NCBI RefSeq assembly: GCF_003207825.1
Contig: NZ_NKTY01000004.1
Span: forward strand, 62,001 to 126,000
Origin: Komagataeibacter saccharivorans
Lineage (GTDB): Bacteria > Pseudomonadota > Alphaproteobacteria > Acetobacterales > Acetobacteraceae
Reading direction: 5' to 3'
Length of the DNA stretch: 64,000 nt
Each line of letters begins with the position of its first letter. Positions within the stretch are counted from its first letter, which is position 1. Under the pieces are notes generated by a model. It ran no database searches. It was not told the origin of the DNA and saw nothing but the letters and a program-made list of their open reading frames with translations. The position numbers were made by a program, and so were the translations under genes. This document shows, one piece after another, positions 21,576-46,338 of this stretch.

Positions 21576-22538
21576 ATGAGTAACGCCTACGATTCAGGTC
21601 GCCTTGATCTTCCTTTTGTCGGTATCTGCAGTTTTGGCAAATACCCGATCCAGACCGACTGGTCCGCGATCGATGCGGATGTCGCCATTATGGGCGCGCC
21701 GTTTGATGGGGGCACGCAGTGGCGTGCCGGTACCCGCTTCGGCCCGCGCGGCATCCGGGAGGCATCGACCCTGTTCGCCTTCGGTCATGCGGGTGCGTAC
21801 GATCATGAAGATGACGCCACCTACCTGTATGGTGAAGGCTGCCGCATTGTTGATATCGGGGATGCCGATATCGTCCATACCAATACCGAACGCAGCCACG
21901 CGAATATCGAAGCAGGCGTGCGGGCCATACTGGCCGCAGGCGCGTTGCCGGTCGTGCTGGGCGGGGATCATTCGATCAATATCCCCTGTATCCGCGCCTT
22001 CAGTGAACAGGAACCGATCCATCTGATCCAGATTGATGCGCATCTGGATTTCGTGGATGAACGTCAGGGCGTGCGGCACGGTCATGGCAACCCGATGCGT
22101 CGGGCGGCGGAACAGCCTTATGTTACCGGCATGACGCAGATCGGCATCCGCAATGTCTCCTCCACCGCGCGGGAAGGATATGATGATGCGCGGCGCTTCG
22201 GTTCGGATATCCTCAGCGTCCGGCAGGTCCGCAAGATGGGGGTGGAAGCCCTGCTGGAGCGTATCCCGGCAGGGGCGAACTATTACCTGTCGCTGGATAT
22301 TGACGGTTTCGATCCCTCAATCGCGCCGGGTACGGGCACGCCCAGCCATGGCGGATTCCTGTATTACGAAGTGCTGGAATTTCTGGCGGGACTGGCGCAG
22401 CGCGGGCGTATCGTGGGCATCGACCTTGTGGAAGTCGCCCCCGATTATGATCCGTCGAACATCACATCCATTCTGGCAGCACAGGTGCTGCTCAACCTGA
22501 TCGGGCGCATCCTGCATTTCCGCAAGACGCCAGCCTGA
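21576..22538 (+). CDS. Agmatinase/ureohydrolase family enzyme
   Basis: Manganese amidinohydrolase releasing urea from a guanidino compound, or a related amidine hydrolase. The binuclear Mn ligands are intact: GGDHS, DAHLDF and SLDIDGFDPS, plus EVAPDYDPS near the C-terminus. Length 320. The N-terminal segment YDSGRLDLPFVGICSFGKYP is like guanidino-acid hydrolases as well as SpeB. It stands at the left edge of the catabolic island with a hairpin after it, not next to polyamine-biosynthesis genes. The substrate therefore cannot be fixed; naming it speB would overreach. Confidence 0.85.
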   Translation: MSNAYDSGRLDLPFVGICSFGKYPIQTDWSAIDADVAIMGAPFDGGTQWRAGTRFGPRGIREASTLFAFGHAGAYDHEDDATYLYGEGCRIVDIGDADIVHTNTERSHANIEAGVRAILAAGALPVVLGGDHSINIPCIRAFSEQEPIHLIQIDAHLDFVDERQGVRHGHGNPMRRAAEQPYVTGMTQIGIRNVSSTAREGYDDARRFGSDILSVRQVRKMGVEALLERIPAGANYYLSLDIDGFDPSIAPGTGTPSHGGFLYYEVLEFLAGLAQRGRIVGIDLVEVAPDYDPSNITSILAAQVLLNLIGRILHFRKTPA

Positions 22539-22547
22539 CGGTTCTTT

Positions 22548-22573
22548 GCCCTCACGTTAGGTAACGTGAGGGC
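22548..22573. terminator. Perfect 12-bp hairpin between convergent genes
   Basis: GCCCTCACGTTA-GG-TAACGTGAGGGC lies between the stops of the ureohydrolase and DUF1028 genes. The stem is perfect but no T-tract follows. Confidence 0.6.
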
Positions 22574-22608
22574 GTCGCCTGTTCCGGGCCGGGCATGAAA
22601 GCCGCTTT

Positions 22609-23286
22609 CTATTCGTCCCCCGGCACACCGTAGGAGGGGGATTCCACCGGATTGACGCTGCGCAGCGTATAGTCGCGCATCTGTGGCTGCCACAGATCCC
22701 ACAGATCCTGAAGCTGCGCGATGGGTGTGTCATGCCAGTCAACCCGCAGGTCCGCCAGCGGCCAGCTATGGGTATCGACAACCAGCATCCCCGCCGATCG
22801 CACCGGTCCTGCTTCCCCGCCCGCCTTCAGCCCGGCGGCAAGGGTTGTGACCAGCCGCTGTCCCAGTTCCATCGTCGTGTCCGTGGCCGAAAAGGCTTCG
22901 ACCATGGCGGCAGGAACCGTGTCATTGGCCAGCAGGTTGCCAGCACAGGCGACATTGTGCCCGGTGGCTGATGTGTACAGGCCCAGTGTTTTCTCACCCG
23001 ACCAGACAGCGGTAAGGCCGGTGTCATCAATTGCCGAAATCTGCCGGTAAGCCGCGAATTCCGATCTGCGCACCAGTATGGCGACACATTCTTCCGCCGT
23101 GGCGCCGCGTTCAAGCAGGTCCAGCCCTGCCGGACCCAGCGAAGGATCGGTAATGTTCTGCGTGGCGACAGCCCCGGCACCGGCGCGTGCAAACGCGCAA
23201 CGGCTGGCCACTGCGGGGGAGGAGGACGAAACGGCGATCCCGAACTGTCCGGTACGCGCGCATCTGGCGACAACTGAAAATGTCAT
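22609..23286 (-). CDS. DUF1028 family protein (Ntn-hydrolase fold)
   Basis: Putative N-terminal-nucleophile amidohydrolase. The start MTFSVVARCARTGQFGIAVSSSSPAV is the family hallmark; the nucleophile would be Thr2 or Ser4 after processing. ATQNITDPSLGPAGLDLL and the C-terminal WHDTPIAQLQDLW are also typical. Length 225. Family members often sit with RidA, M20 deacylases and amidohydrolases, as here, suggesting hydrolysis of an amide or carbamoyl intermediate. It is divergent from the flavin monooxygenase operon and shares its 446-base upstream region. Confidence 0.82.
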   Translation of the reverse strand: MTFSVVARCARTGQFGIAVSSSSPAVASRCAFARAGAGAVATQNITDPSLGPAGLDLLERGATAEECVAILVRRSEFAAYRQISAIDDTGLTAVWSGEKTLGLYTSATGHNVACAGNLLANDTVPAAMVEAFSATDTTMELGQRLVTTLAAGLKAGGEAGPVRSAGMLVVDTHSWPLADLRVDWHDTPIAQLQDLWDLWQPQMRDYTLRSVNPVESPSYGVPGDE

Positions 23287-44365: not shown

Positions 44366-44784
44366 CGGAAGGTGTGGTCGCGGGGCGCGCGGTGCCGCGC
44401 GGGCGTTTTCCCCATCTGCGGCGCGCAGGGGATTTCCTGTTCGTATCGGGCACCAGCTCCCGCCGCCCCGATAACAGTTTTGAAGGCGTGCGCGTGGATG
44501 CAATGGGCACGACCGATCTGGACATCCGCGCGCAGACCCGCGCGGTAATCGAAAATATCGACGCGATCCTGCGCTCGGTAGGGGCCGGTCTGGCCGATTG
44601 CGTGGATGTCACCACCTTTCTGGTCAATATGAACGATTTTGGCGGCTATAACGCGGTGTATGGCGAATATTTCGGCTTTGACGGGCCGACACGTACCACG
44701 GTGGCCGTTCACCAGTTGCCCCATCCGCATCTGCTGATCGAGATGAAGGTAACCGCCTTTTACCCGCAACCCGGTCCGGCGTGA
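44362..44784 (+). CDS. nbaF: 2-Aminomuconate deaminase (RidA family)
   Basis: Deaminates 2-aminomuconate to 4-oxalocrotonate. A RidA-type protein of 140 residues ([63 protein letters not shown]). In the known nba-type pathway this step is done by a member of the same superfamily, and its place between decarboxylase and dioxygenase matches. It overlaps the decarboxylase by ATGA and is separated from the dioxygenase by 10 bases. Confidence 0.82.
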
Positions 44785-44794
44785 GGGATTTCAC

Positions 44795-45340
44795 ATGACA
44801 CAGCTTTCGGCATTCAGTTTCCGTAAATGGATCGATGACAACCGCCACTTGCTGAAGCCGCCGGTCGGCAACCAGCAGATATGGACCGACACCGGACTGA
44901 TGGTGACGGTGGTGGGTGGTCCGAACCAGCGGACGGACTTCCATGATGATCCGGTGGATGAGTTCTTTTACCAGCTTGAGGGTGACATGGTGCTCAAGGT
45001 GGTGGATCGCGGCCAGCATTACGATGTCCCGATCCGCGAAGGGGAGATTTTCCTGCTACCGCCGCATGTGCGTCATTCGCCCCAGCGTCCCATGCCGGGA
45101 TCGGTCGGCCTGGTGATCGAAAACGCCCGTCCCCCAGGCGAGATGGACGGGTTCGAGTGGTACTGCTTTGAATGCGGCGCGCTGGTTCACAGGGTGGAGG
45201 TGCGGCTGCACAGCCTCGTGACCGATATTCCCCCGCTTTATGATGCGTTCTACGCCAGCACCGAACAGCGCACCTGTCCGCAATGCGGCGCGCTGCATCC
45301 GGGCAGGACAGCACCCGACGGCTGGGTCAGGCTGCCATGA
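44795..45340 (+). CDS. nbaC: 3-Hydroxyanthranilate 3,4-dioxygenase
   Basis: Fe(II) cupin dioxygenase opening 3-hydroxyanthranilate to 2-amino-3-carboxymuconate-6-semialdehyde. The substrate and iron residues are all present: Arg46, His50 (QRTDFHDDP), Glu56 (DEFFYQ), His94 and Arg98 (HSPQR), Glu109. The bacterial C-terminal rubredoxin-like iron site is present with CFEC (124/127) and CPQC (161/164). The length of 181 is canonical. Its stop overlaps the ACMS decarboxylase start (ATGA), placing the second step immediately after. Confidence 0.94.
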
Positions 45341-46338
45341 TCATTGACCTTCATTCCCACTTCCTGCCTGCGGCATGGCCGGACCTGCAGGCGCGTTTCG
45401 GCACGCCCGACTGGCCATGGATGCGTCATGTCGATGATGAACATGCGATGCTCATGCTGGGCACGCGCGATTTCCGCCCGGTCTACGATGCGTGCTGGAA
45501 CGCGCAGCGGCGCGTGGCGGAAATGGATCGGGACGGTATCGACATTCAGGTCATTTCCGCCACACCCATCCTGTTCGCCTATGGTCGGCCAGCGGCGCAG
45601 GCCGAATACTGTGCGCGGATATTCAATGACGCGGCGCTGGAAATCTGTTCCCACGCTCCCACGCGGCTGCGTGCGCTGGCGCAGGTGCCGTTGCAGGATA
45701 CCGACATGGCCTGCCGGGAAGCATCGCGCGCCATGGCCAGCGGGCATGTCGGGGTGCAGATCGGCAACCATGTGGGTGACCGTGGTCTGGATGACGCGGG
45801 CATCATGACCTTCCTGCATCACTGCGCGCAGGAAGACATTCCCCTGCTGATCCATCCATGGGACATGATGACCAATGCGCGGATGGGGCCGTACATGCTG
45901 CCATGGCTGGTGTCCATGCCGGCGGAAACGCAGCTTTCCATCCTTTCCCTTATCCTGTCGGGCGCGTTCGAGCGTCTGCCGCGTAATCTGCGGCTGTGTT
46001 TCGCCCATGGCGGGGGCAGTTTTCCCTACCTGCTGGGGCGTGTTGATAATGCGTGGCGCAACCGGGACATCGTGCGCGTCGACTGTCCCAATCTGCCATC
46101 GAGTTATGTGGACCGTTTCCATGTCGATTCCGCCGTGTTTGACCCCGACGCGCTGGAACTTCTGGTTCGCGTGATGGGGGATGAGCGGATCATGCTGGGA
46201 TCGGACTATCCCTTTCCGCTGGGGGAAAGCCCGGTTGGCGGCCTTGTGCGGTCTGCCACGTTCCTCGGTGCGGATGCACGTGCGCGGATACTGGGGGGCA
46301 ATGCGGCGGCGTTTCTGGGCCTGTCCCGCAACGTGTGA
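45337..46338 (+). CDS. nbaD: 2-Amino-3-carboxymuconate-6-semialdehyde decarboxylase
   Basis: Zinc amidohydrolase-fold decarboxylase converting ACMS to 2-aminomuconate-6-semialdehyde, preventing spontaneous cyclisation to quinolinate. Conserved motifs: DLHSHFLP (His6, His8), the HPWDMM segment, [35 protein letters not shown] and [10 protein letters not shown]. Length 333. The start at 45337 overlaps the dioxygenase stop; a longer frame from 45283 would extend into that gene. Last gene of the operon, 16 bases before a convergent LysR gene. Confidence 0.94.

Follow-up and report, generated by a model that had tools for sequence, protein, structure and literature searches.

We analysed 64,000 nucleotides from Komagataeibacter saccharivorans (contig NZ_NKTY01000004.1, positions 62,001 to 126,000; the whole stretch is called the window below), in which a catabolic island joins an HpaB-type flavin monooxygenase cassette, a molybdenum (Mo) hydroxylase and an nba operon for 3-hydroxyanthranilate. 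The question is whether the genes upstream of the nba operon, called the upper genes here, feed this operon or form a unit of their own.

Gene content of the island

Searches with Pfam and NCBIfam profiles placed the genes at the positions and in the families given by the initial annotation. The confirmed families are arginase family, DUF1028, flavin reductase, HpaB, M20, alpha/beta hydrolase, amidohydrolase and the large, medium and small subunits of a Mo hydroxylase, and further MarR, DUF1989, SSF, NCS1, class II aldolase, aldehyde dehydrogenase (ALDH), two proteins with FAA-hydrolase fold, RidA (NbaF), 3-hydroxyanthranilate dioxygenase (3-HAO) and Amidohydro_2. The RidA gene at 25720-26148 was identified by reading the sequence and by matching genes annotated as RidA in other loci. 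The genes of the island are as follows.

21576..22538, +, ureohydrolase of the arginase family, passing the agmatinase cut-off
22609..23286, -, DUF1028 protein, a central gene of the upper unit
23733..24239, +, HpaC-type flavin reductase, partner of HpaB (start approximate)
24261..25712, +, oxygenase component (HpaB type) of a two-component flavin monooxygenase, predicted to hydroxylate an imidazoleacetate-type substrate
25720..26148, +, RidA
26152..27342, +, M20 hydrolase, ArgE-like, predicted N-formylaspartate deformylase
27392..28243, -, alpha/beta hydrolase, esterase-like, distantly arylformamidase-like
28240..29496, -, metallohydrolase of the amidohydrolase/deacetylase family
29628..32012, +, Mo hydroxylase large subunit
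32009..32815, +, Mo hydroxylase FAD subunit
32812..33945, +, Mo hydroxylase 2Fe-2S subunit fused to a CoxG domain (start approximate)
33935..34441, +, MarR regulator
34478..35110, +, DUF1989 protein
35131..36588, -, SSF symporter
37068..38462, +, NCS1 permease
38456..39211, +, class II aldolase-family protein (start uncertain; the longer frame overlaps the NCS1 gene)
41261..42757, +, nbaE, 2-aminomuconic semialdehyde dehydrogenase
42754..43584, +, nbaH, 2-oxopent-4-enoate hydratase-like
43577..44365, +, nbaG, decarboxylase-like (start approximate)
44362..44784, +, nbaF, RidA-family deaminase
44795..45340, +, nbaC, 3-hydroxyanthranilate 3,4-dioxygenase
45337..46338, +, nbaD, Amidohydro_2, in the position of the aminocarboxymuconate semialdehyde decarboxylase

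The best match of the Mo large subunit among solved structures is quinoline 2-oxidoreductase (476 bits), followed by CoxL of CO dehydrogenase (457 bits), which makes the earlier idea of an N-heteroaromatic substrate plausible. The label "arylformamidase-like" for the alpha/beta hydrolase proved weak, as among solved chains it comes closest to a lipase (E 1.1e-43) and a putative esterase, while kynurenine formamidase is matched only with E 9.5e-8.

Separate occurrence of the upper genes and the nba operon in relatives

The initial annotation had proposed that the upper genes convert an N-containing substrate to 3-hydroxyanthranilate for the nba operon. This proposal found no support, and in relatives each part occurs without the other, the outcome that the initial annotation had named as refuting it. 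The congeneric genome G209 has a syntenic nba operon, and neither HpaB nor such a Mo hydroxylase. It shares with the window the six nba genes (75-87%), the ureohydrolase (76%, at its nba locus) and the SSF symporter (82%, beside nba), as well as the LysR and EamA genes that follow nbaD, a class-V aminotransferase-like gene and a TonB-dependent receptor (70-87%), so that the genes conserved with nba reach past 46338, to about 59 kb. Relative to G209, the block at 22.6-35.1 kb of the window is an extra segment between ureohydrolase and SSF. In the opposite direction, two Acidocella loci (L101 and L112) carry the upper genes as one block, comprising the three Mo subunits, amidohydrolase, alpha/beta hydrolase, HpaB, RidA, DUF1028 and M20, with additional matches to MarR in L101 and to NCS1 in L112 and with no nba genes in the stretch.

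The same separation was found in larger samples. Among 19 congeneric genomes, a set that includes Komagataeibacter swingsii, K. europaeus and K. diospyri, five have HpaB and two have 3-HAO. The Mo large subunit was detected in one of the 19 (E up to 1e-100) and the amidohydrolase in four (E up to 1e-60), and only the window genome (an assembly of 3.35 Mb in 107 contigs) has both HpaB and 3-HAO. For 200 genomes of the family, HpaB was called in 27 at E up to 1e-60, a count that takes in G178 (39% match) and several partial matches, and 3-HAO in 18 at E up to 1e-20. Both were called only in the window genome and in G161, where the 3-HAO match is partial, 33% identical and on another contig. This distribution shows no link between HpaB and 3-HAO; it does not show exclusion.

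From 542 confirmed HpaB loci in named genomes we took the best 80 to describe the neighbourhoods of HpaB, and inspected about 10 kb of flank, although some of these loci end early at contig ends; the loci are unevenly sampled and related, and the counts are not independent. RidA is found near HpaB in 79 of the 80 loci, DUF1028 in 74, HpaC in 65 and M20 in 43. Neither 3-HAO nor NbaD lies within about 10 kb of HpaB in any of them, and matches to nbaC, nbaD, nbaF, nbaG and nbaH are likewise absent (0 of 80), while 10 loci hold an ALDH that is 32-40% like nbaE. Besides the window genome, 10 family genomes have an amidohydrolase of at least 68% (a threshold chosen after a gap between 68% and 59% was visible); HpaB is present in 7 of these 10 and in 19 of the 189 without the amidohydrolase (p 2.7e-5), and none of the 10 has a 3-HAO match. 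The co-occurrence of amidohydrolase and HpaB, the Acidocella blocks and the lack of nba genes near HpaB link the upper genes to each other and not to nba. A single pathway that would lead all genes of the island to 3-hydroxyanthranilate was therefore rejected on the HpaB/3-HAO distribution and the neighbourhoods. Upper and lower genes are likely, with good confidence, two separate adjoining units, and no finding makes the first feed the second.

The composition of the amidohydrolase part varies between relatives. At L082 12979-14950 and L168 5989-7975, a Rieske oxygenase with its reductase replaces the Mo hydroxylase beside amidohydrolase, alpha/beta hydrolase and MarR, and the Rieske oxygenase is 76% identical between G208 and G209. 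Genome G207 (L167 3265-7536) holds hydrolase, amidohydrolase, MarR and SSF (82% to the window copy) in the order of the window, with no Mo genes, DUF1989 match or nba; its amidohydrolase adjoins MarR with no oxygenase between, and the locus is perhaps a reduced form.

The remaining features in and around the island are as follows.

39322-41088, Hint-domain protein of 588 aa, between the aldolase gene and nbaE
46355..47383, -, LysR regulator, also kept with nba in G209
47649..48593, +, EamA transporter, conserved with nba in G209
52627..53559, +, LysR, 52-53% to the LysR of the HpaB cassette in congeners and 44% to that of Acidocella
53604..55088, -, class-V aminotransferase-like protein, SufS-like, conserved with nba in G209
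56452..59019, +, TonB-dependent receptor, 87% to the G209 copy next to nba

Judging from its similarity, the LysR at 52627..53559 is probably part of the upper unit. A catabolic role of the Hint-domain protein is not obvious. Between EamA and this LysR (48606-52398) lie a GPH-type sugar symporter and a glycosidase of the mannosylglycerate hydrolase/trehalase kind, which are not found at the corresponding point in G209.

The identification of the lower genes as a 3-hydroxyanthranilate operon was borne out, since 3-HAO and ALDH exceed curated cut-offs (nbaC those of NF009763 and TIGR03037, nbaE its own). NbaG and NbaH fall below the NCBIfam cut-offs, and NbaD is a Pfam match only. As for the description of the operon as a complete E-H-G-F-C-D set, the families and their order are present, while the operon includes no nbaI or nbaJ. 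The profile of 4-hydroxy-2-oxovalerate aldolase (TIGR03217) is above cut-off in none of the 19 congeneric genomes, which is weak evidence as it is likewise above cut-off in 0 of 14 control genomes. The absence of tryptophan and kynurenine genes noted for the window extends to the genus, with tryptophan dioxygenase in 0 of 19 genomes and kynureninase above cut-off in 0 of 19; a tryptophan/kynurenine origin of 3-hydroxyanthranilate was rejected on this ground. The class-V aminotransferase-like gene at 53.6 kb was considered as a kynureninase and rejected, being SufS-like. It is possible that the 3-hydroxyanthranilate is taken up from outside.

3-HAO was also observed in another context. In L067 and L068 it lies beside a gene of the dihydrodipicolinate-synthase family and an aspartate dehydrogenase gene, and in L053, L054, L060 and L068 a Mo large subunit (32-34% to that of the window) lies close upstream. 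The 3-HAO genes of these loci may belong to a further, different 3-HAO pathway.

Active site and neighbours of HpaB orthologs

The window HpaB stays below the cut-off of both HpaB equivalogs, with 237 bits where 480 are required and 161 where 885 are required. In TtHpaB, R100, Y104 and H142 are reported as crucial for substrate binding (PMC10816480); in the window protein the Arg is kept, while Glu104 and Ser146 replace Tyr104 and His142. The identity as a 4-hydroxyphenylacetate hydroxylase was rejected on these scores and the changed Tyr and His. We found the Arg/Glu/Ser pattern in all 105 related sequences, namely the 80 loci and 25 sequences from whole-protein searches; as 5 of the 25 come from loci already among the 80, the total is 100 loci. 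The 80 were retrieved with patterns containing the Glu and Ser, and invariance there is partly built in. The Glu and Ser replacements speak against a phenol substrate, and they do not discriminate imidazoleacetate from anthranilate.

The genes around the orthologs suggest imidazole catabolism. A histamine-dehydrogenase-type protein (~690 aa, 53-77% to a plasmid protein of L064) is encoded near HpaB in 15 of the 80 loci, HutD in 14 and aspartase in 7, and at least one imidazole-related marker, including Hut and His genes, is present in 33. None of 20 other catabolic loci, a small and hand-chosen control set, has histamine dehydrogenase, HutD, HutH, HutU, HisD or aspartase. Among solved matches, the L064 protein is much closer to Rhizobium histamine dehydrogenase (1253 bits) than to trimethylamine dehydrogenase (541), and the L098 protein, the only one of the 15 compared in this way, is closer to Nocardioides histamine dehydrogenase (935 against 562). 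In K. swingsii, histidine ammonia-lyase, urocanase and a HisC-type transaminase are encoded in the surroundings of the HpaB cassette, as is histidinol dehydrogenase in congeners; all of them score above curated cut-offs. The window HpaB has orthologs of 85-87% in congeners and Gluconacetobacter. Because the window itself has no marker genes, the imidazole reading of it rests on these orthologs.

A second indication is that the accompanying genes also occur with another type of monooxygenase. RidA, DUF1028 and M20/ArgE are found with a single-component FAD monooxygenase instead of HpaB in all four loci examined, of 234 matching plasmid records. On a plasmid of Acetobacter pomorum, isolated from a fly gut, DUF1028, FAD monooxygenase, ALDH, Rid, cytosine permease, GMC oxidoreductase, ArgE and LysR lie in one run (L182 8171-17591), and this run, as far as its gene content tells, represents the module with the single-component enzyme in an acetic acid bacterium. 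A search with histamine dehydrogenase, in which 6 loci of 102 matching records were examined, gave RidA, DUF1028 and ArgE together in 5. All three are missing from the stretch of the sixth (L175), which has the FAD monooxygenase; this enzyme is also present in L171, L172 and L174, and no monooxygenase is annotated in L170 and L173. RidA, a deacylase and a monooxygenase lie together at 22.6-27.3 kb of the window, and the same set was found in the histamine-type loci except L175. HpaB and the FAD monooxygenase occur together in L064, in L165 and in 2 of the 80 HpaB loci.

When the marker genes were used as queries, only ALDH (nbaE, 40%, with a second piece at the window end) and LysR at 52.6 kb matched the window; GMC oxidoreductase and FAD synthetase gave no match there at E up to 1e-8.

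The literature offers a model for such a pathway. According to PMC6467879, histamine degradation in P. putida involves the FAD monooxygenase HinF (EC 1.14.13.5), the amidases HinG (EC 3.5.1.8) and HinH, the aspartase HinI and the enamine deaminase HinL, and a route via imidazole-4-acetate and N-formylaspartate has been proposed for P. aeruginosa in PMC2542419. The accessions of the P. putida U proteins are AWA45229 for HinF, AWA45228 for HinG, AWA45227 for HinH and AWA45230 for HinL. Among the matching papers listed, none ties an HpaB-type enzyme to imidazoleacetate, the anthranilate cluster came up in passing only, and the name DUF1028 occurs in no paper of the library that was searched.

Proposed units, rival readings and known systems

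We propose that the island consists of two adjoining catabolic units. Unit 1 would comprise 22.6-35 kb with the NCS1 permease and probably the LysR at 52.6 kb, and would act on an imidazole-type N-heterocycle. In this unit, NCS1 may import the substrate, which the Mo hydroxylase, amidohydrolase and alpha/beta hydrolase would convert; HpaC would supply reduced flavin with which HpaB, as the neighbours of its orthologs suggest, hydroxylates an imidazoleacetate-like acid; RidA and DUF1028 may help to open the product, and the M20 enzyme would deacylate N-formylaspartate to aspartate. Unit 2, with nbaE-H-G-F-C-D, SSF, LysR, EamA and ureohydrolase, would cleave 3-hydroxyanthranilate, whose conversion towards 4-hydroxy-2-oxovalerate is known for these families. 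HpaBC is accordingly a predicted two-component imidazoleacetate-type monooxygenase. More broadly, and with slightly less than an even chance in our estimate, HpaBC, RidA, DUF1028 and the ArgE-like hydrolase form a widespread, unrecognised module for imidazoleacetate-type ring opening, as a non-orthologous replacement of the single-component enzyme. Here and in Acidocella, a Mo hydroxylase, an amidohydrolase and an alpha/beta hydrolase would add a further imidazole compound to the range of the module. That this compound is a yeast-made imidazole alcohol is a guess, prompted by the GMC oxidoreductases and NCS1-type permeases that are found in addition in the Acidocella and Acetobacter loci. In view of the NCS1 permease and the Mo enzyme, we also considered a purine route through hydroxylation of urate, and set it aside.

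To the combined reading, with two units and an imidazole-type upper one, we give an even chance and no more, in view of the doubt raised by the Geobacillus enzyme GTNG_3160 (UniProt A4IT51 according to PMC10816480) and of the absence of marker genes from the window itself. Several findings weigh against it. No imidazole marker is present in 47 of the 80 HpaB loci. Histamine dehydrogenase, HutH, HutU, HutD, HisD, aspartase, formamidase and the FAD monooxygenase have no match in the window at E up to 1e-8, and a search of the window genome for histamine dehydrogenase gave nothing at E up to 1e-150 (entry enzymes of the aminotransferase or oxidase type were not searched). In the family, histamine dehydrogenase is found in 5 of the 200 genomes, just one of which has HpaB. 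NCBIfam names the M20 enzyme acetylornithine deacetylase, above cut-off. That so few family genomes have both HpaB and 3-HAO may be due to chance (p 0.14), and in G209 the amidohydrolase, alpha/beta hydrolase, NCS1 and MarR genes lie about 10 kb from nba.

Three other readings were weighed. HpaC-HpaB-RidA could be an anthranilate 3-hydroxylase like GTNG_3158/3160 that feeds nba, with the Mo hydroxylase and hydrolases making anthranilate from an N-heterocycle, for example of quinazolinone type; we take GTNG_3158 to be the locus number of the Geobacillus flavin reductase. GTNG_3160, an anthranilate hydroxylase of the HpaB family, does make 3-hydroxyanthranilate, and its cluster is reported with a flavin reductase and an FAD synthetase, according to PMC4539516 and PMC5698749; this too counts against the imidazole reading. 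An FAD synthetase lies near 17 of the 80 HpaB loci, a Bacillus badius cluster has it together with HpaB (54%), RidA and DUF1028, and the loss of the phenol-binding Tyr and His would fit anthranilate as well. However, the congeners and other acetic acid bacteria in which the orthologs reach 85-87% have no convincing 3-HAO in their genomes, none of the 80 loci has 3-HAO or NbaD nearby, and the neighbours of the orthologs are histamine, histidine and aspartate genes, which makes an anthranilate hydroxylase unlikely here.

The lower operon might instead be fed by the amidohydrolase/hydrolase/MarR/NCS1 part with its oxygenase (Mo in the window, Rieske in G209), the HpaB cassette being a bystander. 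G209 fits such an arrangement: its nba operon comes with SSF and ureohydrolase, and at a distance of about 10 kb there are genes for amidohydrolase, hydrolase, NCS1 and MarR as well as for a Rieske oxygenase and its reductase. But the amidohydrolase/hydrolase/MarR genes are also present in G207 and G208, both without a 3-HAO match, they lie directly beside HpaB in Acidocella, and HpaB, not 3-HAO, accompanies the amidohydrolase in 7 of the 10 family genomes mentioned above; we regard this reading as quite improbable. A similarly low probability is assigned to two units of which the HpaB unit acts on another N-heterocycle, of pyrrole, pyridine or pyrimidine type, with the histamine and histidine genes linked for other reasons. 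The 47 loci without markers and the closeness of the Mo large subunit to quinoline 2-oxidoreductase would agree with it, and so would the many nucleobase-like substrates that the NCS1 family transports, whereas the recurrent histamine-dehydrogenase-type, HutD and aspartase neighbours and the gene set common to the FAD-monooxygenase loci argue for imidazole compounds.

With the two-unit reading, a doubtful metabolic link gives way to a testable one. The HpaB/RidA/DUF1028/M20 set is named "4-hydroxyphenylacetate 3-hydroxylase" and "acetylornithine deacetylase" in many genomes, and these names are probably misleading. If the imidazole reading is true, such bacteria use imidazole compounds without the classical FAD monooxygenase, and DUF1028 gains a role in a pathway.

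Compared with known systems, the lower unit resembles the nba operon of 2-nitrobenzoate-degrading Pseudomonas in having E, H, G, F, C and D on one strand, in what we take to be the Pseudomonas order; it differs in that nbaX, nbaI and nbaJ are absent from the operon and that no nitroreductase-type upper genes are among those identified here. With 4-hydroxyphenylacetate 3-hydroxylase (HpaBC), the upper unit shares the family and the partner reductase, but differs in its scores below the equivalog cut-offs and in Glu and Ser at the places of Tyr104 and His142 of TtHpaB. The anthranilate 3-hydroxylase of Geobacillus thermodenitrificans NG80-2, likened by family only, also combines an HpaB-family oxygenase with a flavin reductase; unlike that system, the window has no FAD synthetase, and the HpaB orthologs do not lie near 3-HAO. 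From the Hin pathway of Pseudomonas putida U, as described in PMC6467879, the upper unit differs in having the two-component HpaBC instead of HinF, in the added Mo hydroxylase, amidohydrolase and alpha/beta hydrolase, and in the lack of an aspartase in the window, although the Hin aspartase has a counterpart in 7 of the 80 related loci. The two share a monooxygenase, amidases and an enamine deaminase (HinL, RidA-like), and this match in the kinds of genes, with Hin compared by description only, suggests that HpaBC stands in for HinF.

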